Source: Ectocarpus siliculosus
Taxonomy: Eukaryota > Sar > Phaeophyceae > Ectocarpales > Ectocarpaceae
Direction of reading: 5' to 3'
NCBI GenBank assembly: GCA_000310025.1
Contig: FN648925.1
Location: forward strand, 1-20,378
DNA: 20,378 nucleotides
In this document: positions 1 to 20,368 of the stretch, piece after piece
How the letters are laid out: every line of letters begins with the position of its first letter
Numbering within the stretch: position 1 is the stretch's first letter
The notes under the pieces: model-generated
What the model saw: only the letters and a program-made list of their open reading frames with translations
The model's database searches: none
Told to the model about the DNA's origin: nothing
Program-made: the position numbers and the translations under genes

Positions 1-45
1 ACTCGAGCAACTACAACGAAAGCAAATATCGCCATTTGTGGGCAG

Positions 46-1403
46 GCATCGGAAGCCGAGGTGACCGGAGCATCATCCGCTACAACCACATCGAAGACAC
101 GGACGGGGCGGGTGTCCGTTTAGGAGGCCACACGGTGGACGGCATTGAGTACGGCGCCAACAACCAGGTGCTGGTGTGACCTCAGGCATACACCGAGAGT
201 TCTGAGTGTATGCGATGGAAAGGTGCCGCGGTTTCCCCCACACGGGTAGCGCTTGTTTTTGTGACATTCAAAGGCTGGGCCAAGGAAGGTTCGTCCGAGG
301 AAGTTTCATCTCACCCGAATATTTACTTCTGTCGTCAACGTGGTGGGTGTCCAACAGTAGGACGCTGCTCTCACCGTGAGTCAGATACTTCTTTGACCCC
401 CATCCTACCTCGGTTGAAAGGCTGAATATTTCGCACCGTTACACAGACACGCACCTACCTGTCGACGGCTTCCCCAGGTCCCCCAGGAACTTGAACGCCG
501 AGGGCGACATCGCCTCGTCGCCGATTTCGGATAGATAGTGTTTTCGAGCCGGAACATCTTCCCACGCATCGACTTGGAAGAGATGAGACGGTGTCGAGCG
601 AGTCCACATACAACAGTCAGTGATGATTCAACCAACTCATACGCGAACCACGGCCTCCCGTCCCTCCTCCCGCCCCCCCGGCCCTCTACCTATCCGGCCC
701 GTCCGCGCATGCAACAGGTATACGAAAACACCATGGTCAACTGCCGGGCCTCCGGCATAAAGGTCATGGTTACTCCCCAGGGTCAGATCTGCGGCAACGA
801 CATCGAGGTTCCTGACACCGATGATGACGCCGACGTGAGTGTTGAGCCCTAGATTGGAGACCGATATTTTCCCTGGCCTGCTGTTCTGGTGGGTACGATA
901 CTCAAGGGTGGCGGGGGGCGTTACGGCCATCGATCACAAGTACTTGGTGGATACTTCCTTAGAAAAAACCTAGATCATGGGGGTAGGAGCCGCTTTTCTG
1001 GCCTCCAAGGTTACTACCGAAACCTGACATATGTTTTGAACATGACCCACAACACCCGTCTCCATAGTAGAAGAGCACACAATAGGGAGTGGCAAGTGGC
1101 TCTGTTGCAGGAATGTAGCTCGGTTCCGCGTCAGTCCCCGCTGAACCACGTCCGATAATGATTGATTCAGAGAACAAGCAGGAGCGCGGCCGCCTTTGCC
1201 ACTCCTCTGAGCTCCGTCTTCCTCTCTCTCTCTTTCTCTCTCTCGCTTCCTCTCTCTCTCTCTCTCCCACTCTCTTTCTCGCTCTCTCCTTGCACTGGGC
1301 GTCATGAACGCAGTACAACTATTCCGGAGGAGCCTACTACTACGACCCGTTGATACCCTGTGACTCTTCGTCCTCATCGGCGCCTGGGTCAACCTCTGCA
1401 TCG
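46..1403 (+). CDS. Exons 11-13 of left copy: last beta-helix rungs
   Basis: Exons 46-167 (phase-1 start, GIGSRGDRSIIRYNH...), 718-834 (VYENTMVNCRASGIKV...) and 1314-1403 (YNYSGGAYYYDPLIPCD...). They encode the C-terminal rungs and Ser-rich exit. Compared with the right copy I find one exonic difference, C to A at 756 (Gly GGC against GGA), which is silent. The intron at 835-1313 holds the CT-rich tract. Confidence 0.78.
1217..1288 (+). repeat. CT-rich microsatellite in intron 12 (left copy)
   Basis: An imperfect (CT)n tract with TTTC interruptions, about 25 bp upstream of the exon 13 acceptor, so it may act as an extended polypyrimidine tract. It is repeated unchanged in the right copy (about 17193-17264). 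Arg/Glu-rich minus-strand readings across it are not genes. Confidence 0.85.
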
Positions 1404-1753
1404 GTGAGCTCGATTCTCTTATAGAATACACTAGCGAGAGAGAACACTAGCAAAAGAGAGACCGAGATACGATGGCGACAAGGCGTAGTGCGATCTACTT
1501 GTCTTGCTGGAGCCGTCCATTCGATCGCGAGATGTAGGTGTGGGCCGTTCGTTCTTTGCTCGGGTAGCGAGACTCGTCCATTGTCTCCGATGTGCTGCTT
1601 GGTATCACAACTCCAGTAAGGTCTTGGCGCGTTCTGATACCAAACGTTTCGAATCGGCTGTCATTTGCATTTTGCCGTTTACATAGAAGTCGAAGTACCC
1701 GCAGCACCAGGTAGCAGTAATCTCTGGTTGTTCCGCTCTGTTGGGACTGGAAG

Positions 1754-1807
1754 CCGCTTGGTCTAGTTGTATTATAGGCTCCGCTTGGTCTTGTTGTATT
1801 GTAGGCT
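1754..1807 (+). repeat. Two tandem 27-bp units in intron 13 (left copy)
   Basis: Two adjacent units starting CCGCTTGGTCT and ending TAGGCT, with two mismatches between them (A/T and A/G). The same pair is at about 17730-17783 in the right copy. It lies within intron 13. Confidence 0.8.
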
Positions 1808-2206
1808 CGACACTTGATATTCGGGCGACCATGCATGGATAGATGCGCGGGAGGGAAGTTAAACACCGCCGAGGCGTGCAATGGGCGATTCACCCTCTGG
1901 CGTGGAAAGGTTCGGTTCGTGCATGCATGTGCGTGTGCACTTAGGGGCAGGGTGTGAGCGAAGCCCTCCTCATGGGTGCAAGGCGGCGGCATGCGGGCCG
2001 CACAATATATCCGTGGCCGACGCGACCACGGGCCTTAGTTCTTCAGCCAAAGAGGCAACATTCGTGGAGTAGTGTAGCGCATAATAGGTAATGCAGAGTG
2101 CGCCCCATAGTGATACACTCCAGATGTGAGGATGGAAACGAACTACATGGAAAACAACGACTACAGTAACCCTCATAACAAGCGCGTTTCGTTGTCGTGT
2201 GCCCAG

Positions 2207-2517
2207 GTGACCCCGGCACCTGAGCCAACGCCCGAGGCAACGACCGAGGCATTTGCCGAGGCAATGAACGAGGAATCCTCCGAGCCAACGATCGAGTCAA
2301 CAATCGCGCCAACGCCTGCGGCAACGCTCGAGCCAACGACCGACGCCAACGCCCGCGGCAACGACCGTCCCGACGTCTGAAGCAACGATCGCGCCAACGA
2401 TCGCGCCAACGCCTGCGGCAACGCTCGAGGCAACGCCTGCGGGAACGCTCGAGCCAACGGCTGAAGCAACGATCGCGCCAACGACCGAGCCAACGACCGA
2501 GCCAACGGCTGAAGCCG
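2207..2517 (+). pseudogene. Exon 14 of left copy, with +1 frameshift
   Basis: Pro/Thr/Glu/Ala linker exon. It reads in frame through ...ATLEPTTD, then shifts into DANARGNDRPDV and a TGA at 2378-2380. The base following GACCGA is an extra C relative to 18319-18322 in the right copy. After the insertion the original frame resumes intact to the GT donor at 2518, so only one base separates this exon from function. Confidence 0.75.
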
Positions 2518-3549
2518 GTGAGTATTTCCGAAGACAGACCAATCCTCCTGCCCTTGCTGTACGCTACCACTCAGTATGTTAGAATGTATGCCATAATGGT
2601 ATGGGACATTACAAGAATGATACTGTAGTCCCAATGTGCCCCAAAATTCCAAAACCGAACGGCACCGATACTTAGGGGAAATCGACCGCGTTGTACGCTG
2701 GGTTGGGGAGCCAAAATTCGGGTATGAGTGGGGATAAGTATCCAACCATCATGATCCACAGCAAGTAGCCCACACGCACACACAAATAGCCATCTGGCGG
2801 CGGGGCGCGTTTGAAGGCCTCCCTGAAAGGGCGACGTGAAGAAGGCGGTGCAGAAACAATACAGGGTACAAGAAATCTAAGCGATCGAAAAGGAGCGCGT
2901 ACACGAGCATTGGACCTATTGGCGTCGCCGTGCTATCTGTTGGGCAGTCACGCCGAAAAACATACATGATTCACAAGAGCAGGGACAACTCGTAGCGGGA
3001 GAGAGTGTTCCACACAGGAAAACCGACAGATGGTTCGAAAACGTGAGGGGGAGCCGAAACGACACTACTGTAGTTCTTGGCCGACGCCAACAATGACGAG
3101 AAAGCAGAACATGCTTGCTGTGCGAAGTATTGGCAGACTGTTCCACTAGGAAGTCCCAGTATTTTGGAAGACTGCTGATAATGCGGGAGAAGAGACAACG
3201 ACAGCGACGTCTTGGCATAGAACAGCAGCAGGGGAACTGTCACCCACCGCATGGCCGAAGGATGAAAACATATTGTATGGAAAGCGTGCTATTGAGCTAC
3301 AGCAGTATAGTGGGCAACATGAGTTTGGGGGAATAATACATAGCAGCACAACAAGTCCATCGAAATGAACACGAAATGAAGTAGTAGGCTGCGGTCCCGT
3401 ACGTGTTATTGAGAAGCTTGGTTGGTCGCCCTGCTGCGCCACTAAAAAACAACAAACGAGCACACTCCGTTCCAACTATCACCAACATTTTTCGCGTACT
3501 TCTCGCGCCCGCACGACCCGATCTCCAACCCGTACGTTTCAAGAAACAG

Positions 3550-3825
3550 AGAGTACGTGTCGCGACGGCATTGAGGGCATCGACGGCCGCGTCGTCTGCT
3601 GCCCGCTCGAGTGTGGCCAGTGCGGAGGGACGGGATGCAGCACTTCTGGCGCCGCGTACGGTCTTGGCGCTGACTCTTGCTGTAGAGAACCGGTCAGTTC
3701 TAGCGGCAAATACTGTGACGACACCGGCGAAGCCCCATGCATCTACGGCAGTGCCCCCGATGCTGACGACGACGACGACAACGACGACACCAACGAGGGT
3801 GATGCTGAGGACGACGATGACGAAG
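3550..3825 (+). CDS. Exon 15 of left copy: first 10-Cys module
   Basis: Same ten cysteines and acidic stretch as 19525-19800. The only difference I see is GAG against GAA (Glu) at 3809, which is silent. The acceptor context is TTTCAAGAAACAG|AGAGTACGTG. It can only be translated in its original frame if the upstream frameshift is absent or skipped. Confidence 0.75.
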
Positions 3826-4004
3826 GTGAACGCCATAGCATTCTGGTAGCCCAAACATCCTGTCCGCTTACAGTGGCTATGTGCCATGAGCAAGGATATG
3901 CGTCGGGGAAAATCTTGATGGCAGTGCTGCCTGCACCTCAAAATTTCGAACTCACCATCACAAAACAAAACCGAAATTCATTGGACTTGCCCGTTTCAAA
4001 ACAG

Positions 4005-4402
4005 AGAGTACGTGCAGCAATGGCCTCGAGGGCATCGACCACAGAGGCGAGATCTGTTGTTCGCTCGGGTGTGGCCAGTGCGGAGGTCCAGGATGCGACG
4101 CTTCGGGCGCTTCGAACGGTCTCGGCGCTGAGTCTTGCTGCCCACCAGAGGTGCACGATAGCGGCAGATACTGTGACGACACCAACGAGGCCCCGTGTAT
4201 CATTATAGCCGACGACGACCACAACGACGACGACGAGGACGACGACGACGACCATAACGACGACAACGACGACGATAACGACGACGATAACGACGACGAC
4301 GACCACGACGACCACGACGACGACGACGACGACCACGACCACGACGACCACGACGACCACGACGACGATAACGATGATAACGACGACGACGATACTGCCT
4401 GA
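4005..4402 (+). CDS. Exon 16 of left copy: second 10-Cys module and Asp/His/Asn tail
   Basis: The Cys module is identical to the right copy, with one silent change (GGC against GGT). The tail starts to differ at ADDDHN against ADGDHN, then in order and number of Asp, His and Asn, and ends DDDDTA rather than HAA. The exon is 398 nt against 389 nt. The stop TGA is at 4400-4402. Confidence 0.78.
4208..4393 (+). repeat. Coding (GAC)n-type trinucleotide repeat (left copy)
   Basis: Imperfect GAC/GAT repeat with CAC and AAC units, translated as the Asp/His/Asn tail of exon 16. The antisense reading is almost pure valine and is not a gene. It differs from the right copy in length (nine bases longer) and in unit order, while its flanks are nearly identical. 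Confidence 0.88.
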
Positions 4403-6479
4403 AGGGGGAGTATGAATCGGAGACCTAAACGTAGAGCGCCACATTTTTCTTCACCGTCAATCTCGTCCTATTCCGGGCGGATGTCTGCGCATTTTTTTAA
4501 CGACCACCTGTGCGGTGGCATTTTCCATCAACAACAGCGGGATCGTGTAAGTGGGCGATGGTCGCAAGTGCATTCCCATCGACCGGGGGGCAACTAGTGT
4601 CTCCTTTTTGTTTACGTTGCAACCTATTGTCTCGCCGGATCCTCGTTGCATTGTTGCTGCCTGTGGAGGGAGTGTTTTTGAGGTATTCAGGCGTCGTTGC
4701 CACGTACCACTCATCAAGCGAAACTGTTCGTTGCATTCTGGTAGTCTAGGAATAACCATTTAGCCTGTTTCGAGGCCCCCCTTTTTGAGTCGAGGCCACG
4801 TCTTACGAGACGCGAATATGCCTCTGAAGCAGGACCGAAAGTCCGGACAAGTTTTTGACTCGGCTCATTAACCCTGAAGCGTGCACTGCCTCGCATGACG
4901 GGTGCCTGCACAATGTTGATACTATTTAGTCTACAATAGTTGCATGTTAGGTTTTTTTCAGCTGTTTTTTTGCTCAGGTATGGGTGTGCAATGCACGTAG
5001 GGAGGTGCTTTTTCTTTACCCCATCGACAACGTCGTCAATTGTTTTACAACCCGTTGTGACGGTGTTGCTTAGTTACCCATCTCGTAGGAGTACCGCTAC
5101 TGCGGTATTATGAGTATGGTGTCGATGAAGTATATAGGCATTACTTTCTTTTTGCGAAGCAGCATATACTGTAGTACAATATGCAGGTCTTGTTTTTGGT
5201 GTTGGGTGATGTTGGCTGTTTCGTGGTTTCGAGGAGACACTCACGACACATGCTGAAGATGTTTTTGGTCGTGATGCGATTTTGGTCCACCACCGCTCGA
5301 GTTTGAGTTGATGTTTTGAAGAAAAGCTCGATATCGTGTCCGCATGCATGTACTGCATAGTCAGGGTTACGTGTCAAATTAAATTAATATTTTAAGCCTG
5401 GGTGCGCGTTTAAAGCCGACAGGTTGTTTGTTTTGTTCGGCACGACGGGTGGGTCTAATCAAATAGCACGAGAGGAGCGTGTGAGAATAGGTACATAATG
5501 GAATGCATCGTGCACGTGAGGGTTCGCGTGAGAGTTCGGGGTCGTTTGTGTACCCGTAACATACTGTTTCCGAGAAGCACTATCTTTCATAGAGGAGGGG
5601 GGGGGTGGCCAAGCCCTATTCGAATTCCAATTGTAAGAAGAAACTCAGATGTGTCTCGCATCTACAGTAGTTCGATGTGCCCATGGACAACCTCCTGTCC
5701 AAAAGCGGAACCTTCTTGTTTCTCGCGTCGACTGCTAAACCTCTGGGCCTTCGCTAGGATCGAGATTGATGCTCCTGGGTTATTCAGTGACTGGAGAACA
5801 TGCATCTCTGCATGGTTGGATAGTTGAACTGATGATTTTGTTGACACAAACGGCCAGATTTTGACAGCCGTTTCTGGTGGCTTGTTTTCCTTTCTCGGCG
5901 CACGCGTTCTTTCTGCTGCGTCTTTCAGCGAAGACCAAATTCAGCAGGCACCGCTTCGTCGTGTTAGTTACAATATCACTGAAGGATTGTCGGAGTACTA
6001 CCGGAGACGGACACATCTCGAGGAGATGTCCTCGACCCCTTTTACCAGCCAACCAGGTCCATCCCCCGACCAGTTCGGTCTCAAGACAGGTAGTTTCTAG
6101 AAGCACCTCATCCCGAGTCCCACCATTGCAAAACGCAAAATAATTAGTTGTGTTGGCCTTCATTCGTCGCTCTCTGGCGATATTATACCGAACCAAAAGC
6201 ATTTCGTTCTTTTCTTGGACGGAAACTTCGCAACAATTTCCACGGCATTTCAAACATGAATCGACGACGTGTGAGTTTCAAACGTTTACTGCGGAATAGT
6301 TGTCGACGATGTAGAGGTTGGAATGAAAGGAGGCCTCCGCTACGCCATGGGACCCACGGATACTTCATGTTGATGACCTTCTATTTCTTGCTGTTGTCCG
6401 ACTTTTTTCCCCATACTTCTCGATCGAAGACAGAGGAACCTGAAGTTCACGAAGCTACAGCGACCGCCATTCATTGCCC
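4403..6479. other. 3' flank of the left gene, no further gene recognised
   Basis: About 4440-5420 is T-rich on the plus strand with runs of six to seven T, as expected of a 3' UTR and downstream sequence of the left gene. I cannot place the poly(A) site. From 5420 to 6479 there are only short, unrecognised reading frames, a run of nine or more G near 5597, and copies of CTAC(A/T)GTAG at 5167 and 5662. The right end may contain more of the mobile element seen at 6480-7850. Confidence 0.55.
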
Positions 6480-7850
6480 TTGGTTATCCAAAAGCCGAAA
6501 ATCGTTCGGTGCGTTCTTCTTGCAACGGGAGATCGACTGTCTCCATGTACAACCGCTCCTCTTCCTCATGCTGACTCTGAACTTGCCCGCACCTAGCAGC
6601 AACACCTCCCCCTTGTATCGTGGGTCCGACATATCGCTGTGCAAACCCGTGCGTTTTCCATCCCACAAAGCCCATAAGGGCTTCTCGTGCAGTCCCCGCC
6701 AACGACTGGTTCACCGCTCCGCCTACCCTCAATAAATGCATAGTTTACTGGTACCTGCATCTCCCAGACGGCCTTCGTGTATGTGAGCTTGTAACGACGC
6801 TGTCGTGCTGCCGACCACTGTGACGACCCCCTCAAGCCGTCGGCGTTGACCTTGGGTAACAAGCACCGTATCGCTCGCAATGGACAGAGCTCGGTACACT
6901 GGCGGTCTCGTCTAACCGCCACCGCATGCGACGAGCTTCTCAGGGTCTTGCCGAAGTGAAAATTGAAAAGCATCCCTGTCCCGTCGGGAAGGCTCAAGAC
7001 TTGTGCCGCCAACGCGCGCGCCAAGTCGAACCATCGTTGCATCGTGTGAACGCAGTGATGAACAGCGCGATGTCTCTACTGCGAGCCACACGCTCGCCCA
7101 CCGTGTACAGGTGGTTCCCCGTCTTGCGCATGTACCGTGCAAGACGCAGGAGGAGTGGGGCGGGCATCGGTCTGGCATGCTTAACTGTAATCCCCACTCG
7201 GCGCTGCTCTGCTTGATCCCCCTCGGACCGCCGTGCTATCGGCAGCGTCACCTCTCTTCTCACATTTGTATCCCACGGATCTGACTTCCCCAATATCTCC
7301 GACATTGCACACTTGAGTTTCGACACAAACGCTTTGTCCTATGTTTGGGCTGCGTGCCGGTTCGCGCCAGTGCTATCCTTTCGACACGCCGCCAACGAAT
7401 TGGACCAGATCTCAGTGCAGTCGACCGCATGAACCACCTTCGTACCGTTGCCGTGAGAATCAAGCCAGCAGAGCCAGTCCTGCACATCGACGTCGGTAGC
7501 ACTTTCCATCCCCGATTCCCGTCCGTGTGCGCTCTGAGGAACGCATCAAGCTTATCCGCCACGGCGCATTTGCGTTGCTGACTGGCCTTGCTCCTCAGGG
7601 ATGCTAACACGGTCTCTTCACGCGCGGTGCTAAGCGGGACTTATCGATGACCACGGTCGCCCCAGGTACCCGAGGTTCCAAACACCTGGAACGGGGGCGT
7701 CCCACAGTGTTGGCAGAAGTTGAACGTCGCGTCGTTCTGGGCCCTGCAGTACGTACTACACAATACTTGCGGTATCCTGTCCTGTACGAGCGGGGCTCTG
7801 GAGGGAACCCGCTGGAGGACCCCCGCCACATACTGCTGATGACACAATGA
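6480..7850 (-). pseudogene. Decayed zinc-ribbon tyrosine recombinase (mobile element relic)
   Basis: Read on the minus strand, at least four frames join into one protein-like series. An N-terminal zinc ribbon (YCRAQNDATFNFCQHCG, 7700-7750) is followed by a helical stretch (KLDAFLRAHTDGNRGWKV, about 7510-7560). Next come a core-binding-like part (VSKLKCAMSEILGKSDPWD, 7260-7326, then KHARPMPAPLLLRLARYMR and RDIALFITAF) and a catalytic part with a candidate box-I Arg (QRWFDLARALAAQV, about 7000-7040) and LFNFHFGKTLRSSSHAVAVR. The end has HLLRVGGA (HxxR, 6727-6738), FVGWKT (Trp at the usual His/Trp position, 6658-6660) and AQRYVG (candidate nucleophile Tyr, 6631-6633). Order and motifs fit tyrosine recombinases. 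Frame changes, an in-frame stop and an apparent deletion before the HxxR segment show it is dead. The DIRS-like, Crypton-like or other affiliation is not decidable here. Confidence 0.72.
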
Positions 7851-8759
7851 AGACGAACACGACCATTAAGAAACAAGGAAATGACGGCAACCATATCTCG
7901 AAAGTCCAAATCCACCGCTCGCATTCCGTGTCGTACATTGACACAGTCTCGTACTCCTTCCTGATGGTAAGGATATCCGAAACTCCCGTTCTCGGTAACA
8001 CGAACGATTTCACCGTGGCTCGTAAGGCTCGCGGCCACCGAAAATCTCGTACATCTGGCACACCACGGCGGCGTGAAACTCGGCACTCGGACAGATGTTG
8101 GATATTGTGTCTCGCCATGACGAGAGGCGGTAAACTGTACCCGAACGCCGGCGTGCCCAGCCCCGGCGTCGCATGGCGAACCTCTTTCCACACCGTGGCC
8201 AAACCCTGCTACCCTATAAGCTTTCGTGGTTAGGTGCAATTTCGTGGATCTATGTATGTAGTCTAAGGGCTCCTCACACCGATTGTGGTTCCATCACCGG
8301 CACACTTCTTCCCACACATGAACGACCCTGGCGGTAATAGCGTTTGGAACAATATCGCCAGAGAGAGCGACGGAAGAAAGGCAAGATAACGCCTGCAACG
8401 CAAGTACCGGGCAACCATCAAGTCCCGCCGTCGGAGGCAGCATGCTGTATCGCCGATTCTATCAACAACCCTCGACGTAGAGCACAACACCCCGCATCTG
8501 AACATGTCAACAACCGTCGTAGGAAACATCGCGCCAATAGAGCCGGCCACTTTAATGTGGCGCCACGAACATCACCACCAGGACAGGATCGCTAGTAGTC
8601 TGTTTTCGACTACTGTACCGAGTAGACTATCTACCCAACGGGCTTACGTGTGGACCTCACATCGTCGAAGACTTACCCTCTTATTTCGTGCCGATGTAAT
8701 CATTGCCTCTCATCTACTTCTTCTGCCCCACTGGGGGGCGGGGGGGCAATCGTTCCCCC

Positions 8760-10354: not shown

Positions 10355-10453
10355 ATGTCCTCGCTCCTGCTGCCACTGCTCTTCCTAGGCTGTTCAACGT
10401 TCTACGGCCAGTGCGCCACCATATCGATCTCTCCGGGAGGCACCGCATTTCAG
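10355..10453 (+). CDS. Exon 1: signal peptide and first beta-strand
   Basis: Encodes 33 residues beginning MSSLLLPLLFLGC, a short N-region followed by a Leu-rich hydrophobic core. A plausible signal peptidase site follows GQCA near residue 21. The mature chain then opens with ISISPGGTAFQ, the usual first strand of a secreted beta-helix. The exon ends in phase 0 at CAG|GTACAG. No other in-frame ATG gives a signal sequence. The next exon is 1271 bp away. Confidence 0.8.
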
Positions 10454-13400
10454 GTACAGACAACGTGGTTGTAGTGTGGAGCGCCTTTTGAGCCTCGATA
10501 GGTTTTTGTTTGAGCCTCCGTCAGTTCTCGGATGCTCCGGGATCAACATGATCAAGGTCTGGAAATTCAACACCAATGTCGAATGGACACAACTATCGGA
10601 GATTGTCGGCGGAACTCGTCACTATATCTATGTGCATGTGCAGCAGTATCGGTATACTGTAGCTTCGTCCAAGGTTGTGTGTGTGCGTGTCGCTTTATAC
10701 AGTAGAGCCTCAGACTACCTAATAGATGTTTTCTTTCGATACTCGGACCGTCATATCTGGGGAAATTAGCCCCGGCAACGTGTCCATGCTTCGCCGTAAA
10801 GGCGCAGGCCATGCCGACACTCCAATGAGTAACGTCATTGAGTCATGACTTCGCTCATGACCCCCGGCTTCGTGACCCGCTCATGATCAGATCATGACCG
10901 AGTCATGCGACGAGTTTGTACGTAGTGTGGGGCGTATTCGAACACTGTGTGCAGGTTAGATGCTCAGTTTCGGTCCGATTCCTTCCTCGTCCTTCCTTTC
11001 TCTCCCAGTCGCTCGCTATCGCTCACTCCCAGGCAACACTAACACGTGCCAGAGGGAACGTCATACCTTGCTCGTGCTGCCATTCATGGTTCCGTTGCTT
11101 GCTTCAAACTCGGAACACAACAAATCATCTACTGTAATGTTGGCAGTAGTGGTGGGTGTATTCCACAGGATACGCACGAATGTTCGGCCAGATGCTGGAT
11201 CATGATCCAGTCATGATCCTGCCACGATTATGATTGTGTCATTGCCGGGTCAACATGAGTTGGGCCAAGACCGTGACAGAGATGATCATGTCATGATCGG
11301 GTTATGACCCAGTTCATGCCCGTCACGACAGAGCCAAGACCCATGATCGGGTCATTGCTGAGCCGTACCCCGATCATCCCGATCATGACTGAGTCATGAT
11401 CAAAACCCCTCCATGTAAATATCAAAGCCCGCCGGTTGGGAATGGATTTCGCGGGGTACCACAATCAATCTTCGCCGTAGACCTCAAGACCGAATCATTA
11501 CTCATGTGCGTATGTGAACCACTTTCATTCAGCAAGGGAACAACCAAGCGTAGAGCCAAGATATACGAAAAATGCTTGGCCCCACTCTTTGAGCAGGTTA
11601 AATGTACGTACAGTAGTCTGAACCGTTTCGGACTTTGAGTACACTGTACTTCAATCATCCACTCAAGGTTTCCACGTGCGAACCGCTGCACTGATTGGCA
11701 CAACGCGCTACTTGCTGGCCTCAGGATGCCCTCGATGAGGTCAACCCTGGTGACGTCATCGAGGTCGGGCACGGAGATTACTGGGAAGATATCAAAACAA
11801 CGGTGGGTGGACGGCGGTGTGGCCTCGCATGTGCACTCAGGGTTGTCTGCATCTACAAAAGGCCATCGCGTGTACAGAAGCCCAGTCAGAAGTGGGAGTT
11901 CTACTGTAGTACTGCTGTCGTCGGTTGCGATACCATTGAGCGCCCACAAATGTTAGGCGTTCTTTTTTATTTTGAAGGGTCCCACTCTGCTGTGCCGTCG
12001 AACCTGTCGAGCAATGGCGTCTCGTGAGAATAGCACTGGACGGCCGCTTCTCGCGGCCAAGCCTTGATCTCGGTTCATTCTCTCACTTCATCGTCGCCGC
12101 TCTGTAGATCGATGGAACGGCCGACATGCCGATCACTATCCGCGGGGCTGGGGGGACGGACGACAGAGACAACGTGGTTCTGCGCGGCGATGGCACTAGC
12201 AGCAGGGTCTTCGAAGTCAAGCACGACTACTACATCATCGAGGTGCGAATATCGTCGGCTACGGCGCCGCATGCACTGCGAAAACATCATGACTACTTCA
12301 CTGTGTATATATTGTTAGTGGGCCGAACGCAGCCGCGCATTCATATCGGTCGTTGAGGACCGAAGAACTCCAAAGGATAGGCCAACATGGAGGTGGCCTG
12401 TGATGGCGAAGTGCCATCATGACAACTGAAGCGCTGCTTCGATGCAAATCATTGGTACCACACGTAACCGGGCAGGCGAGTATACTTACTCTATGCCGCA
12501 ATATACCTATTGGATGTCGCATGCTAGCGATCGAGTCGCCGAGTACATGGGCGACGTCATGGGCGTGTGGTGCATGGTATTTTCGTCTGGAGCGTTGTCG
12601 TGCCCTTTGGCGCTTGTCATAGTATCAGGCCTGCCTCTAAAGGCATTCGCGAGCAAGGAGTGAAGAGCATCATCACTCGACCATGCGTGTGGCGAACAAC
12701 CAACTATCAGACGCTGTGGTAAAACGAACAATTCTTGCCGTGTCCGCTCGCCCCAACCAGGACTTCACAGTGAACGGAGACGCGGAAGATGATCCAGACC
12801 GCGGTACGGGTTCCGATTCCATCAAGGAATTGTGGCGCGACATACTAATCTACGCCACCGGTAGGAGATTTCCCAACCATGGCGTCGTTGCTTTGGTGTA
12901 AGCGGCTCCCTTTGTAGAGGTTTCGTTGATACTGTTGTTTCCGTTGCCAAGATCGTCTCGGGGCCCCATCCCAAGGTTGTTCGCAACCCTCCACAACGAC
13001 AAGACCACAAAGTTACAATACCACAAAGGAAACGCTTGCAACGGGAAAGCTTTGGCTGGACAAGTGCAGAGGGGTCCGTTCCTCGCGTCCGTTGTACGAG
13101 AAACGTGCTGATGGTAAACCCTAGTGGCCCGTCGTCGCCGATGTCTGGCCATTTATTTGTCTTGACTGTCAACGTTGGCATGGCCCCTGTGGCTATCCAC
13201 GCGTGCAACGAAAGCTCAGGCCGCTACTCCCCCTCCCACCTATACTCACCCAGTTCGTTGTAACGCATGGATGTTGACCGTTGTTTCCACTCCCTCCGTC
13301 GGTCAACCAGGCGGGCGGGAGCCTACCGAAAGAGATGGGGGCTATGTTTCTGGCATAGACGGCCTGGTAATTCGCAACATGGCGATTGCCAATGCCGGTG

Positions 13401-16400
13401 GCGAGTGCATCCGCTTACGCGGTAAGCGGAGAAGCAACAAATAGTGTTCTCGTCGCACACACGGGGTCCGTCTCTCGCATGCGAAGTGCGGTGACCAACT
13501 ATTCGTTGCCGTCAATTTCTTCTCGCACGAATCGATGCTAACTGCCGCGTTCATTCGAAAACGTGAGCGTGCTGTGTCGCGTGTTTGAGTGTCTGATGCT
13601 CGGTCGTACGCAGTGCTTCAAGGGCGTGCTACGTGCAAATTTCCCTTGTCTCCGTGAAGCCAGCTGTTCTTCAAGCAGTCTCCAGTTGCGTCTCAGAGGA
13701 CAAAGTCTGACTGCGTCTAGAGTGAACTCATGCGCAGGCGGCACAAATTGGAATCACTATTGTTAACACCTCGAACCATTTTTCCTTTCGGCGTTCGTGC
13801 TCTACTTCCACCAAACACGCGGCCGCTCCTGCCGCTGCCCATCTTTCCTCTCAAGACCACGTGACGTACGCCGAGGTGTACGGCAACACTATCACCGACT
13901 GCGGTAAGCTTCAGCCATAGCCTTTTTCAATGCCTTAGCACAAGCTCCACATCGCTGACACCAGGGCTGGCGAACCCTAGTACCCAAACAATAACCTCCA
14001 CCCCACCCCATCTCTTGCTTTCCGACGCTCCCGTTCCCGTCTTCGTGCGCCCAGGAATCTACGACTTCAGGTTCGAGTAGCCCCAATGCACCCAGGCTCG
14101 ACCTGATTCGACTTGAAGAGCGGCGCGTTCTTGACATGTCAAGCGATTTTTCCCGAAATACCTCGCGTTACGCGTTTACCGGTGGCGGGCCTGGGTGGTT
14201 TGTTTTGTAGTTTGGTGGGGTGCGCAGAAAAAACCGGTGCAAGCGAACCCGTCAAACAGTTTGTTGTGCGGGGTGGAAAAGAGAGTGGCCGCTTCGAAAT
14301 TCTCTGTTGCAGTCACAGTAGCGCGTCACGCCCGCACCTCTCGCTGGTACGTTCTGTTCCAATTCTTCTTCCCTCCACCCTTTCGGCCTTATCCTCCGTG
14401 TCATCTCCTTCCTCCCGCTCCCTCCCCCCCCGGGCTTCCACGCACCTGAAGGGAAGAAGGCACTGAGGGCAAGAACGGGGAAGGTGTATGTGAGTGGGAC
14501 CAAACAACGAGAGTACTCTGGCGTGATTTATTCCCGGGGTAGGCGTGCGGTTGCAGTCAACAATGACAGGAACTGTCGCACAGTTTGAAGCATGACGGTG
14601 CCGTTAACAACGTCCAACAGTTCGGATTCTACGGATTTTAGTCAAGCACCTTGCCGCAATGAGCGTCAACGATGTCCTGCTGAGGCTACGCCGAAAGTGT
14701 ACGCTTCGTGCTTGGGTCCCCCGCATGGGCCAGGCGTCTTTCGGAAGTGAGAAATGTGTAGGCAACTTTCGCCACTCATAGAAACGTTGGACAATACACC
14801 CAAATCATGGTACAGTGTGTGTGTGCTTCGACATGTTTATTGTCTCCCCTCTGACATGTTTCGATGGTCAACACGCAGATATCGGAACCTCCAGCACTCA
14901 GTGGGACGACGGTGACAATTGGAGTGACGGGCCGGACGTGTGCCAGGGTATCACAGTCCGTGACAACTTCATCAGGACAAAGGTAAGGGAAGAAGAATCG
15001 AACCTCGTCATCATGCTTACCACGAAAACAAATGTGCGCATTAACGTCATCGTACATCACTGCATGATATGTTGGTTAGAGCTGCACTTTGTCATACGTC
15101 GTGCCAGAACCAAGCATCACAGCGTCATGTTGCGACAATTATCGCGAGCTTCATGGCATTTGACACGAGGTTGGTGATCTCAAACGGACAGACAGGTTTA
15201 GAATCGAATCGAAAAAGGCAGGAACCTGTTAGTTGCCGGACTCGAAGCCCGACAACGACGCAAAGCGCAAGTTTCCCGCAAAACGATTGCCCGTTGTGGT
15301 TTGATGCTTGGCGAATTGGGGGTGAGGTGAGACTCTCTGCGATCTGCTAATAGGGCGGTGTACTTTATGCAGTTGCGGCCGCTCCTCGCCGGTTACCAGA
15401 TTACCAGAAGTCCGCCTTGTCCGCACGAACTCATGTTCGCTCCGTGGCCACTACTGCGCTGTACTACTTCCATCAGGGTAACGAAGGCATTGAAGTGAAA
15501 GAAGGAACCGTTGAAACCCTGATCGAGGGCAACGAGGTGTACATGCAATACGACGCTGAGTCCGGAGGTGAGTCGGAGAGGCGAGGACAGAGAGATCAAA
15601 CAGCTCCGGTTGTTCACACAACGAGTCGGCGAGACATTGATTGATTGGAGTATGAAAACATTGAGTAACAGTCTTGGACCCGGTCTATCACATACCTGGG
15701 ACGCATCTTAAAGATTGCCCCAATCGCCACAGGAGAAACAACGTTGTCACAAGTCTTGATTACTCGTGCAGCATTGTACACGATGCATCCGGCTTACGCA
15801 AAACATGTGATGGGAATTCGTCTTCTCCCGGTGATGTCATGCACACTTCGAGGTTTTCCGGAGCACGAAAGTGTGTGTACCCAAACTGTAGGCTTTTTCG
15901 ATAGCGCAAGACGTTTCCCCTGAGATGCGTCTTCGCACCAACCTTCTGCGGGGGCACAGAAGCAATCGCGAATACCACTCGAGCAACTACAACGAAAGCA
16001 AATATCGCCATTTGTGGGCAGGCATCGGAAGCCGAGGTGACCGGAGCATCATCCGCTACAACCACATCGAAGACACGGACGGGGCGGGTGTCCGTTTAGG
16101 AGGCCACACGGTGGACGGCATTGAGTACGGCGCCAACAACCAGGTGCTGGTGTGACCTCAGGCATACACCGAGAGTTCTGAGTGTATGCGATGGAAAGGT
16201 GCCGCGGTTTCCCCCACACGGGTAGCGCTTGTTTTCGTGACATTCAAAGGCTGGACCAAGGAAGGTTCGTCCGAGGAAGTTTCATCTCACCCGAATATTT
16301 ACTTCTGCCGTCAACGTGGTGGGTGTCCAACAGTAGGACGCTGCTCTCACCGTGAGTCAGATACTTCTTTGACCCCCATCCTACCTCGGTTGAAAGGCTG

Positions 16401-19400
16401 AATATTTCGCACCGTTACACAGACACGCACCTACCTGTCGACGGCTTCCCCAGGTCCCCCAGGAACTTGAACGCCGAGGGCGACATCGCCTCGTCGCCGA
16501 TTTCGGATAGATAGTGTTTTCGAGCCGGAACATCTTCCCACGCATCGACTTGGAAGAGATGAGACGGTGTCGAGCGAGTCCACATACAACAGTCAGTGAT
16601 GATTCAACCAACTCATACGCGAACCACGGCCTCCCGTCCCTCCTCCCGCCCCCCCGGCCCTCTACCTATCCGGCCCGTCCGCGCATGCAACAGGTATACG
16701 AAAACACCATGGTCAACTGCCGGGCCTCCGGAATAAAGGTCATGGTTACTCCCCAGGGTCAGATCTGCGGCAACGACATCGAGGTTCCTGACACCGATGA
16801 TGACGCCGACGTGAGTGTTGAGCCCTAGATTGGAGACCGATATTTTCCCTGGCCTGCTGTTCTGGTGGGTACGATACTCAAGGGTGGCGGGGGGCGTTAC
16901 GGCCATCGATCACAAGTACTTGGTGGATACTTCCTTAGAAAAAACCCAGATCATGGGGGTAGGAGCCGCTTTTCTGGCCTCCAAGGTTACTACCGAAACC
17001 TGACATATGTTTTGAACATGACCCACAACACCCGTCTCCATAGTAGAAGAGCACACAATAGGGAGTGGCAAGTGGCTCTGTTGCAGGAATGTAGCTCGGT
17101 TCCGCGTCAGTCCCCGCTGAACCACGTCCGATAATGATTGATTCAGAGAACAAGCAGGAGCGCGGCCGCCTTTGCCACTCCTCTGAGCTCCGTCTTCCTC
17201 TCTCTCTCTTTCTCTCTCTCGCTTCCTCTCTCTCTCTCTCTCCCACTCTCTTTCTCGCTCTCTCCTTGCACTGGGCGTCATGAACGCAGTACAACTATTC
17301 CGGAGGAGCCTACTACTACGACCCGTTGATACCCTGTGACTCTTCGTCCTCATCGGCGCCTGGGTCAACCTCTGCATCGGTGAGCTCGATTCTCTTATAG
17401 AATACACTAGCGAGAGAGAACACTAGCAAAAGAGAGACCGAGATACGATGGCGACAAGGCGTAGTGCGATCTACTTGTCTTGCTGGAGCCGTCCATTCGA
17501 TCGCGAGATGTAGGTGTGGGCCGTTCGTTCTTTGCTCGGGTAGCGAGACTCGTCCATTGTCTCCGATGTGCTGCTTGGTATCACAACTCCAGTAAGGTCT
17601 TGGCGCGTTCTGATACCAAACGTTTCGAATCGGCTGTCATTTGCATTTTGCCGTTTACATAGAAGTCGAAGTACCCGCAGCACCAGGTAGCAGTAATCTC
17701 TGGTTGTTCCGCTCTGTTGGGACTGGAAGCCGCTTGGTCTAGTTGTATTATAGGCTCCGCTTGGTCTTGTTGTATTGTAGGCTCGACACTTGATATTCGG
17801 GCGACCATGCATGGATAGATGCGCGGGAGGGAAGTTAAACACCGCCGAGGCGTGCAATGGGCGATTCACCCTCTGGCGTGGAAAGGTTCGGTTCGTGCAT
17901 GCATGTGCGTGTGCACTTAGGGGCAGGGTGTGAGCGAAGCCCTCCTCATGGGTGCAAGGCGGCGGCATGCGGGCCGCACAATATATCCGTGGCCGACGCG
18001 ACCACGGGCCTTAGTTCTTCAGCCAAAGAGGCAACATTCGTGGAGTAGTGTAGCGCATAATAGGTAATGCAGAGTGCGCCCACATAGTGATACACTCCAG
18101 ATGTGAGGATGGAAACGAACTACATGGAAAACAACGACTACAGTAACCCTCATAACAAGCGCGTTTCGTTGTCGTGTGCCCAGGTGACCCCGGCACCTGA
18201 GCCAACGCCCGAGGCAACGACCGAGGCATTTGCCGAGGCAATGAACGAGGAATCCTCCGAGCCAACGATCGAGTCAACAATCGCGCCAACGCCTGCGGCA
18301 ACGCTCGAGCCAACGACCGAGCCAACGCCCGCGGCAACGACCGTCCCGACGTCTGAAGCAACGATCGCGCCAACGATCGCGCCAACGCCTGCGGCAACGC
18401 TCGAGGCAACGCCTGCGGGAACGCTCGAGCCAACGGCTGAAGCAACGATCGCGCCAACGACCGAGCCAACGACCGAGCCAACGGCTGAAGCCGGTGAGTA
18501 TTTCCGAAGACAGACCAATCCTCCTGCCCTTGCTGTACGCTACCACTCAGTATGTTAGAATGTATGCCATAATGGTATGGGACATTACAAGAATGATACT
18601 GTAGTCCCAATGTGCCCCAAAATTCCAAACCGAACGGCACCGATACTTAGGGGAAATCGACCGCGTTGTACGCTGGGTTGGGGAGCCAAAATTCGGGTAT
18701 GAGTGGGGATAAGTATCCAACCATCATGATCCACAGCAAGTACCCCACACGCACACACAAATAGCCATCTGGCGGCGGGGCGCGTTTGAAGGCCTCCCTG
18801 AAAGGGCGACGTGAAGAAGGCGGTGCAGAAACAATACAGGGTACAAGAAATCTAAGCGATCGAAAAGGAGCGCGTACACGAGCATTGGACCTATTGGCGT
18901 CGCCGTGCTATCTGTTGGGCAGTCACGCCGAAAAACATACATGATTCACAAGAGCAGGGACAACTCGTAGCGGGAGAGAGTGTTCCACACAGGAAAACCG
19001 ACAGATGGTTCGAAAACGTGAGGGGGAGCCGAAACGACACTACTGTAGTTCTTGGCCGACGCCAACAATGACGAGAAAGCAGAACATGCTTGCTGTGCGA
19101 AGTATTGGCAGACTGTTCCACTAGGAAGTCCCAGTATTTTGGAAGACTGCTGATAATGCGGGAGAAGAGACAACGACAGCGACGTCTTGGCATAGAACAG
19201 CAGCAGGGGAACTGTCACCCACCGCATGGCCGAAGGATGAAAACATATTGTATGGAAAGCGTGCTATTGAGCTACAGCAGTATAGTGGGCAACATGAGTT
19301 TGGGGGAATAATACATAGCAGCACAACAAGTCCATCGAAATGAACACGAAATGAAGTAGTAGGCTGCGGTCCCGTACGTGTTATTGAGAAGCTTGGTTGG

Positions 19401-20368
19401 TCGCCCTGCTGCGCCACTAAAAAACAACAAACGAGCACACTCCGTTCCAACTATCACCAACATTTTTCGCGTACTTCTCGCGCCCGCACGACCCGATCTC
19501 CAACCCGTACGTTTCAAGAAACAGAGAGTACGTGTCGCGACGGCATTGAGGGCATCGACGGCCGCGTCGTCTGCTGCCCGCTCGAGTGTGGCCAGTGCGG
19601 AGGGACGGGATGCAGCACTTCTGGCGCCGCGTACGGTCTTGGCGCTGACTCTTGCTGTAGAGAACCGGTCAGTTCTAGCGGCAAATACTGTGACGACACC
19701 GGCGAAGCCCCATGCATCTACGGCAGTGCCCCCGATGCTGACGACGACGACGACAACGACGACACCAACGAGGGTGATGCTGAAGACGACGATGACGAAG
19801 GTGAACGCCATAGCAGTCTGGTAGCCCAAGCCTCCTGTCCGCTTACAGTGGCTATGTGCCATGAGCAAGGATATGCGTCGTGGAAAATCTTGATAGCAGT
19901 GCTGCCTGCACCTCAAAATTTCGAACTCACCATCACATAACCAAACCGAAATTCATTGGACTTGTCCGTTTCAAAACAGAGAGTACGTGCAGCAATGGCC
20001 TCGAGGGCATCGACCACAGAGGCGAGATCTGTTGTTCGCTCGGGTGTGGCCAGTGCGGAGGTCCAGGATGCGACGCTTCGGGCGCTTCGAACGGTCTCGG
20101 CGCTGAGTCTTGCTGCCCACCAGAGGTGCACGATAGCGGTAGATACTGTGACGACACCAACGAGGCCCCGTGTATCATTATAGCCGACGGCGACCACAAC
20201 GACGACGACGACGACCATAACGACGACGACCACAACGACGACGACGATAACGACGACAACGACGACGACGATGATGACGACGACCACGACGACAACGATG
20301 ACGATGAGGACGACGACGACGATAACGACGACGACGATGACGACCACGATGACGACCACGCTGCCTGA
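10355..20368 (+). CDS. Secreted beta-helix / 10-Cys / poly-Asp protein, complete 16-exon gene (right copy)
   Basis: Spliced model, exons: 10355-10453, 11725-11802, 12108-12242, 12761-12860, 13311-13421, 13856-13903, 14055-14070, 14452-14489, 14879-14982, 15477-15567, 16022-16143, 16694-16810, 17290-17379, 18184-18493, 19525-19800, 19980-20368. All 15 introns are GT-AG, all phases agree, and the coding length is 2124 nt (707 residues plus TGA). Order: signal peptide 1 to about 20; right-handed beta-helix about 22-360 with recurring G-N/D-x-I/V rungs (VRDNFIRTKGNEGIEV, IIRYNHIEDTDGAGV); Ser-rich 370-383; Pro/Thr/Glu linker 384-487; Cys module 488-551 plus acidic stretch; Cys module 580-644 plus Asp/His/Asn tail to 707. 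Opening words such as ISPGGTAFQ, NPGDVIEV and MPITIRG are typical of pectin-lyase-like folds. No family-specific catalytic set was recognised, so no lyase or epimerase activity is claimed. Likely secreted to the wall or matrix. The start is the ATG that opens the signal peptide. Least certain points are exons 7 and 8 and any missed alternative splicing. Confidence 0.83.
10843..11399 (+). repeat. TCATGA-rich degenerate repeat in intron 1
   Basis: Nine copies of the palindrome TCATGA (starts 10843, 10855, 10881, 10892, 11200, 11211, 11291, 11383, 11394) in about 560 bp, many as GATCATGATC or GAGTCATGA, in two clusters separated by about 300 bp. It lies inside the long first intron of the right gene. 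It could be an eroded minisatellite or a binding-site cluster. Confidence 0.7.
11725..17379 (+). CDS. Exons 2-13: right-handed beta-helix domain (right copy)
   Basis: Twelve exons of 16-135 nt carry residues 34-383. They read as successive beta-helix rungs: DALDEVNPGDVIEVG (exon 2), DNVVLRGDGTSSRVFEV (3), DFTVNGDAEDD (4), IDGLVIRNMAIANAGGECI (5), VTYAEVYGNTITDCG (6), GIYDF (7), KNGEGVY (8), GITVRDNFIRTK (9), GNEGIEVKEGTVETLIEGN (10), GSRGDRSIIRYNHIEDTDG (11), VYENTMVNCRASGIKV (12). The aromatic and Ser-rich exit is in exon 13 (YSGGAYYYDPLIPCDSSSSS). Three paired Cys-containing rungs could be disulphide linked. The fold assignment rests on this repeat pattern; the substrate is unknown. Confidence 0.78.
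17193..17264 (+). repeat. CT-rich microsatellite in intron 12 (right copy)
   Basis: Same tract as 1217-1288, with no length change that I can see. This is unusual for a dinucleotide repeat if the two copies are old, and so supports very recent duplication, gene conversion or an artefact. Confidence 0.85.
17730..17783 (+). repeat. Two tandem 27-bp units in intron 13 (right copy)
   Basis: Counterpart of 1754-1807, with the same two internal mismatches, showing that the small tandem predates the long duplication. Confidence 0.8.
18184..18493 (+). CDS. Exon 14: Pro/Thr/Glu/Ala linker (right copy)
   Basis: A 310-nt exon encoding 103 residues plus one base, nearly all P, T, E, A, I, S or L, built from three-residue units such as EPT, APT, AAT and EAT. 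Threonine is almost always ACG and proline CCA or CCC, so the DNA is a degenerate 9-18 nt repeat. It joins the beta-helix to the Cys modules. By analogy with other P/T-rich extracellular linkers it is probably extended and O-glycosylated. It is intact here, but its left counterpart carries a frameshift. Confidence 0.8.
19525..19800 (+). CDS. Exon 15: first 10-Cys module plus short acidic stretch (right copy)
   Basis: Residues 488-579. Ten cysteines spaced C-x12-CC-x3-C-x2-C-x4-C-x13-CC-x10-C-x7-C, with conserved words GIEGIDG, ECGQCGG and YCDDTGEAPCI, followed by an Asp-rich stretch of about 23 residues. The exon is symmetrical (phase 1 at both ends), so it can be duplicated or skipped without shifting the frame. 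I know similar Cys modules only from uncharacterised stramenopile extracellular proteins; their function is not known to me. Five disulphides are likely. Confidence 0.78.
19980..20368 (+). CDS. Exon 16: second 10-Cys module, Asp/His/Asn tail and stop (right copy)
   Basis: Residues 580-707. A second copy of the module with cysteine spacing C-x13-CC-x3-C-x2-C-x4-C-x13-CC-x10-C-x7-C (words GLEGID, GCGQCGGPGC, YCDDTNEAPCI). It is followed by about 60 residues made almost only of Asp, His and Asn, ending ...HAA and TGA at 20366-20368. The tail is an imperfect GAC/GAT repeat in which CAC (His) and AAC (Asn) differ from GAC at the first codon base. It is three residues shorter than the left copy. 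A polyanionic, His-containing tail suggests binding of divalent cations, but this is inference. Confidence 0.8.
20183..20359 (+). repeat. Coding (GAC)n-type trinucleotide repeat (right copy)
   Basis: Counterpart of the left tract. It has more GAT and fewer consecutive CAC units, and its unit order cannot be aligned base for base with the left copy, as expected of slippage or unequal exchange in a short tandem array. Confidence 0.88.

Follow-up and report, generated by a model that had tools for sequence, protein, structure and literature searches.

A candidate secreted, modular PL41 alginate lyase with an uncatalogued ten-cysteine module in Ectocarpus siliculosus

Gene model and copies in the window

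The window, meaning the whole stretch of 20,378 nucleotides that was analysed, is contig C358 (bases 1-20378) of the 189-Mb genome of Ectocarpus siliculosus. A gene was predicted on its forward strand from an ATG at 10355 to a TGA at 20368, with 16 exons encoding 707 amino acids. All 15 predicted introns have GT-AG borders and the phases are consistent throughout. The predicted product consists, in this order, of a signal peptide, a beta-helix, a Pro/Thr-rich linker, two modules of ten cysteines and an acidic tail. The features of the window are as follows.

1..4402, + strand: upstream copy of the gene, represented by its 3' part, with a one-base length change that disrupts the frame of the linker exon
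10355..10453, + strand: exon 1, with the start codon, a signal-peptide-like N-terminus (about residues 1-20, judged by eye) and the start of the mature chain
11725..12860 (11725-11802, 12108-12242, 12761-12860), + strand: exons 2-4, N-terminal coils of the predicted beta-helix
13311..14070 (13311-13421, 13856-13903, 14055-14070), + strand: exons 5-7, coils with ECIRLR, R174 (equivalent to PsAly Arg156) and a 16-nt microexon
14452..14982 (14452-14489, 14879-14982), + strand: exons 8-9, with GEGVYIGTSSTQW, including E206 and Y209 (equivalent to PsAly Glu181 and Tyr184)
15477..15567, + strand: exon 10, with GNEGIEVKEG, including E246, E249 and K251 (equivalent to PsAly Glu216, Asp219 and Lys221)
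16022..17379 (16022-16143, 16694-16810, 17290-17379), + strand: exons 11-13, last coils (R278, R298); the catalytic domain ends near C369
18184..18493, + strand: exon 14, Thr/Ala/Pro/Glu-rich linker of 12-bp-based repeats, residues 384-486
19525..19800, + strand: exon 15, first ten-Cys module (from residue 487) followed by an acidic spacer
19980..20182, + strand: first part of exon 16, second ten-Cys module (from residue 579)
20183..20368, + strand: last part of exon 16, Asp/Asn/His tail (residues 647-707) encoded by a degenerate (GAC)n microsatellite, and the stop codon

The original prediction, made from the same DNA, had described a single phase-consistent 16-exon gene, and comparison with paralogs supports this model at the level of predicted splicing. 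The two short exons at 14055-14070 (16 nt) and 14452-14489 (38 nt) are conserved in both paralogs on contig C8, and in one of these (L015/L016) the counterparts of twelve exons (2-13), both short exons included, splice in phase. A 14-exon model was dropped; distant paralogs carry residues after ITDC that are absent from this shorter version. Between the catalytic part and the same C8 paralog, dN was 0.135 and dS 0.252 over 343 codons, and the resulting dN/dS of 0.53 suggests moderate, not strong, constraint. The predicted mature start in exon 1, ATISIS, is similar to the ATTYK given for the alginate lyase SjAly in the accessible text of PMC6426991. In intron 1, dense TCATGA-like palindromic words were seen by eye at 10820-11400.

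Positions 1-4374 of the window were 98.9% identical to positions 15977-20355, the two copies lying 15,976 bases apart. Each end of the contig lies within a copy or immediately beyond one, an arrangement like that of a broken tandem repeat. Two further copies were found on contig C47 in opposite directions. The one-base length change in the linker exon of the upstream copy is absent from the three other copies compared; either this copy is a pseudogene or the change is a sequencing error. Between the two copies of the window, positions 6500-8300 form a dispersed repeat that matches the own genome 27 times, counting the query. A minus-strand ORF in this repeat had a weak match, below the cut-off, to the KDZ transposase cysteine cluster (PF18804, E 0.009).

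Catalytic domain and its relatives

A pectin-lyase-like beta-helix had been proposed for the N-terminal part of the protein. When the protein in its 14-exon version was searched, two generic Pfam models, NosD (1.5e-8) and Beta_helix (4.6e-8), exceeded the cut-off, in agreement with this proposal; in NCBIfam the beta-helix matches were all far below the cut-off. Seven algal paralogs, of which three are partial, were aligned, and the PDB was searched with the resulting profile (A1). 6KFN came first among the ten matches (E 6.5e-13), followed by the PL6 enzyme AlyGC (E 6.2e-8), of which the best stretch covered positions 6-82 of 333 and two further stretches were weaker. It was the AlyGC match that led to PL6 being considered. 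6KFN is PsAly, an enzyme of family PL31, according to the accessible part of PMC8618178.

In PsAly, Tyr184 and Lys221 were reported to be essential by mutation, and a cation is bound by Glu181, Glu216 and Asp219 (PMC6796002, accessible text). The 6KFN chain index plus 34 gives the published numbers, and residues were mapped by counting on the A1 profile alignment. Glu181, Tyr184, Glu216, Asp219 and Lys221 correspond in this way to E206, Y209, E246, E249 and K251 of the window protein, while Arg156, His154, Asp250 and Lys252 correspond to R174, R172, G276 and R278. His154, Asp250 and Lys252, which the accessible text of PMC6796002 gives as fully conserved in PsAly homologs, are thus not kept. 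The same text states that SjAly retains Glu181, Tyr184, Glu216, Asp219 and Lys221 of PsAly and that SjAly activity is nevertheless cation-independent. Four of these five shared residues are identical in the window protein, and the fifth, Asp219 to E249, is a conservative replacement. SjAly, the founding member of PL41, was compared through its published antibody peptide, GEGIYIGTSSTQWKNGEDRC, residues 203-222 of the enzyme (PMC6426991, accessible text). Over this 20-residue peptide, which stands here for the full-length protein, residues 205-224 of the window protein are identical at 13 positions, 12 of them within the first 13. With the SjAly peptide, PsAly and the residues reportedly common to both as the basis of the assignment to PL41, the gene product is very probably a secreted alginate lyase of this known brown-algal family.

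A beta-helix that binds alginate without cleaving it would instead make the protein a structural cross-linker, near the role originally proposed. The Glu and Gly in place of Asp219 and Asp250, the dN/dS of 0.53 and the added modules would all fit such a binder. It is nevertheless unlikely, as the equivalents of Tyr184, Lys221, Glu181, Glu216 and Arg156 are all kept in the window protein and invariant in A1.

Scanning of bacterial genomes gave 123 confirmed relatives, of which 80, with 32-44% identity, were kept. They include the PL41 groups named in the accessible text of PMC11468063 (Gamma- and Alphaproteobacteria and Actinobacteria), together with Chloroflexota and candidate phyla, and they were read as single ORFs, in contrast to the 16 exons of the window gene. 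At the Glu216 and Lys221 positions all 79 bacterial ORFs have E and K, respectively, and the Asp219 position is D in 63, E in 15 and N in one. These ORFs had been chosen via the motif GE..Y, so that conservation of Glu181 and Tyr184 among them is not independent evidence. In a tree, the seven algal rows fell on one side of a single branch with weak support (61/87), branches being long and three of the rows partial; one or several transfers are therefore both possible.

An AlphaFold model of a Hahella relative (L034), made with 24 other bacterial relatives, had a mean pLDDT of 91.8 and many short strands resembling a beta-helix. The first match of this model in Foldseek was 6KFN (E 9.5e-12), and 6KFN was also first in VIA-align (Z 33.7, rmsd 2.1 over 279 residues), ahead of a glycoside hydrolase (Z 31.2) and the alginate epimerase/lyase 8JA4 (Z 29.7). 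In a phmmer search of L034 against the PDB, 6KFN was not among the matches listed. Using L034 as a proxy of about 40% identity, a right-handed parallel beta-helix is predicted for the window protein as well. 6KFN was the best match of both the A1 profile and the L034 model, and the pectin-lyase-like beta-helix of the original prediction is supported.

The DPHD motif, with its catalytic His-Asp, belongs to the mannuronan C5-epimerase AlgG. Neither DPHD nor DPH was found in the 707 residues of the window protein, the sole HD pair within the beta-helix being at 98-99. The lack of DPHD argues against a mannuronan C5-epimerase or a mixed epimerase/lyase, which would have the same fold and the same chemistry of C5 proton removal. 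Such an enzyme would agree with the presence of 8JA4 and the A-modules of AlgE6 and AlgE4 among the next structural matches of L034 (Z 28.7-29.7). It is very unlikely in view of the 4 Z units by which 6KFN exceeds 8JA4, and of the closest characterised protein by peptide, SjAly, being a lyase.

A viral origin was also considered, since Ectocarpus homologs bear an annotation derived from FirrV-1-B30 of a Feldmannia virus (PMC6426991, accessible text). No relative was confirmed in viral contigs for either the beta-helix (0 of 46 pattern-matching stretches) or the Cys module (0 of 93), an absence that carries little weight in both cases.

Linker, cysteine modules and tail

The duplicated cysteine modules and the Pro/Thr-rich linker were recovered as first described. 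The linker (residues 384-486) contains 27 Thr, 22 Ala, 19 Pro and 17 Glu. Both modules have ten cysteines, all of which are invariant in 11 of 11 aligned modules. No Pfam model matched any of these 11 modules at E<=1, and five further ORFs with Cys modules gave no Pfam match either; a sixth ORF, near a Cys-module ORF, had a WSC match just under the cut-off (26.8 against 27.8). No relative of the module was found in the PDB (best E 1.1), and AlphaFold gave no usable model (pLDDT 42) for the two modules of the window and their two copies. EsV-1-7 repeats are Cys/His repeats. They were considered as the identity of the module and set aside; the module has ten cysteines and no conserved histidine.

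With 150 of the 178 candidates scored, the own genome yielded at least 140 matches to the module at E<=0.01, some incomplete or interrupted by a stop. They form 65 clusters, of which 39 are single and the largest has 23 members. This is a stretch of contig C4 (5401679-5427136) with 23 modules on one strand, about 1 kb apart; in the part that was read (L113), modules alternate with Pro/Thr-rich stretches. WSC domains had at least 133 matches (150 of 244 candidates scored). Of the 133 listed, 12 have a Cys module on the same strand at most 5 kb away, and none has one on the opposite strand; chance alone would give about 0.25. Six of the 12 pairs fall in one region of contig C21, so that the events are not independent. 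Among the titles and abstract openings listed in the literature search, none dealt with the module or with PL41 proteins that carry Cys modules; as the module lacks a name that could be searched, no claim is made that it is unpublished. The words WSC and cysteine are both absent from the main text of PMC11468063, as accessible. As judged from its sequence, the module looks like a large uncatalogued family.

The C-terminal part differs between paralogs. Two PL41-like paralogs, L022 on C16 and L024 on C26, carry F5/8 type C domains (Pfam 7.9e-22 and 1.2e-13), a variant that is likely carbohydrate-binding. On C15, one paralog (L019) has a Pro/Thr-rich linker, a WSC domain (Pfam 3.6e-14; split over exons and missing from the WSC match list) and a Cys module, and in another (L021) the Cys module follows a Ser-rich linker. 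In the C8 paralog L016, a third, damaged module with an in-frame stop was seen at 5144-5281, behind the other two. According to the accessible text of PMC6426991, four Ectocarpus homologs (CBJ32331, CBJ32749, CBN76926 and CBN76927) have C-terminal extensions of 171-281 residues, so that modular PL41 members as such are not new.

Twenty-one beta-helix loci were listed by hand from 76 exon matches obtained with the 14-exon version, excluding the truncated upstream copy of the window, which has both modules. A Cys module follows within 12 kb on the same strand at eight of them. At the other 13, a few of which sit on short contigs or have single-exon support, no Cys-module match lies in that range. 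This would fit a model that falsely joins two adjacent genes, one for a lyase (exons 1-13) and one for a Cys-module protein (exons 14-16). A false join is improbable, hardly more than a marginal alternative. The phases fit throughout, the order of beta-helix and Cys module is kept at the eight loci, and in L021 a single exon of 505 nt spans the C-terminal catalytic segment, the linker, the Cys module and the stop.

The 61-residue tail is present as first described, with 43 Asp, 7 Asn and 6 His. The last 61 codons of the gene are GAC (35), GAT (8), AAC (7), CAC (5), CAT (1), GAG (1) and others (4), that is, a GAC repeat with point changes, and TRF reports the same repeat. The four near-identical gene copies have four different tails; two are alike except for two residues, and one has a single His. 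The C8 paralog L018 stops immediately after its second module, with a short GAC run beyond the stop, and L019 and L021 end shortly past the Cys module without an acidic tail. In contrast to the tail, the acidic spacer that separates the two modules has been retained by both L018 and L016. Going by these sequences, the tail is recent and variable. The proposed role of a polyanionic, His-containing, cation-binding tail finds no support in these comparisons: with a tail that varies and is missing from L018, L019 and L021, a conserved role in calcium binding is unsupported. A calcium role is possible, with no support from conservation.

Proposed role and comparison with known systems

Taken together, the predicted gene structure, a domain of PL41/PL31 type and the retention of the catalytic residues make it likely that the window gene encodes a secreted, modular PL41 alginate lyase. 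By analogy with PsAly, cleavage would be a syn beta-elimination in which K251 abstracts the C5 proton from a mannuronate unit and Y209 protonates the glycosidic oxygen; E206, E246 and E249 would be positioned to bind a cation at the carboxylate. SjAly works without cations, so the cation step may not apply to the window protein. The linker could be a flexible spacer, and the Cys modules could retain the enzyme in the wall or attach to a ligand there, an arrangement of stalk and anchor. A wall-held enzyme might then trim alginate locally during growth or gamete release, the latter idea coming from the accessible text of PMC12629598. The acidic tail is most likely a by-product of the microsatellite; any electrostatic effect would be loose at best. 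It is conceivable, as a tentative suggestion, that the Cys module is a brown-algal lineage-specific unit for wall docking or ligand binding, present in well over 100 copies and exon-shuffled onto alginate lyases and WSC proteins, which holds enzymes at chosen places of the alginate matrix.

The original prediction of one secreted gene product with alginate as the likely ligand agrees with this reading. The beta-helix, on the other hand, is recognisable as an enzyme domain, that of a PL41 lyase with the catalytic Tyr and Lys kept, and is not an undescribed fold; the Cys module is uncatalogued in Pfam. The window protein would accordingly be a modular member of a known enzyme family. According to the accessible text of PMC11468063, which cites the SjAly work for PL41, no other lyase family has been reported from brown algae; the mean gene number per genome is put at 19 in one place and at 22 in another. 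The family is thus known and large; less known is the ten-Cys appendage, which is used in many other genes of the genome. Alginate is both synthesised and remodelled by the brown algae themselves; the question is how so many similar PL41 enzymes are told apart in the wall. Paralog-specific C-termini (F5/8 type C, WSC and Cys modules) would offer a concrete and testable answer.

The PL41 enzyme SjAly of Saccharina japonica likewise has a secretion signal, a predicted beta-helix and the motif GEG(I/V)YIGTSSTQW (PMC6426991, accessible text), and the catalytic residues listed for it in the accessible text of PMC6796002 are common to the window protein. SjAly is described as having 359 residues and seven exons and no C-terminal extension (PMC6426991, accessible text), whereas in the window protein the signal and catalytic part is spread over 13 exons and about 338 residues follow C369. 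PsAly (6KFN, PL31) has Glu181, Tyr184, Glu216, Lys221 and Arg156 in common with the window protein, in which its Asp219, Asp250 and Lys252 are replaced by Glu, Gly and Arg. 6KFN is the best structural match of the bacterial relative L034, yet the two are only 19-22% identical. The Ectocarpus proteins CBJ32331, CBJ32749, CBN76926 and CBN76927, by their description in the accessible text of PMC6426991, combine, as the window protein does, an SjAly-like domain with a C-terminal extension.
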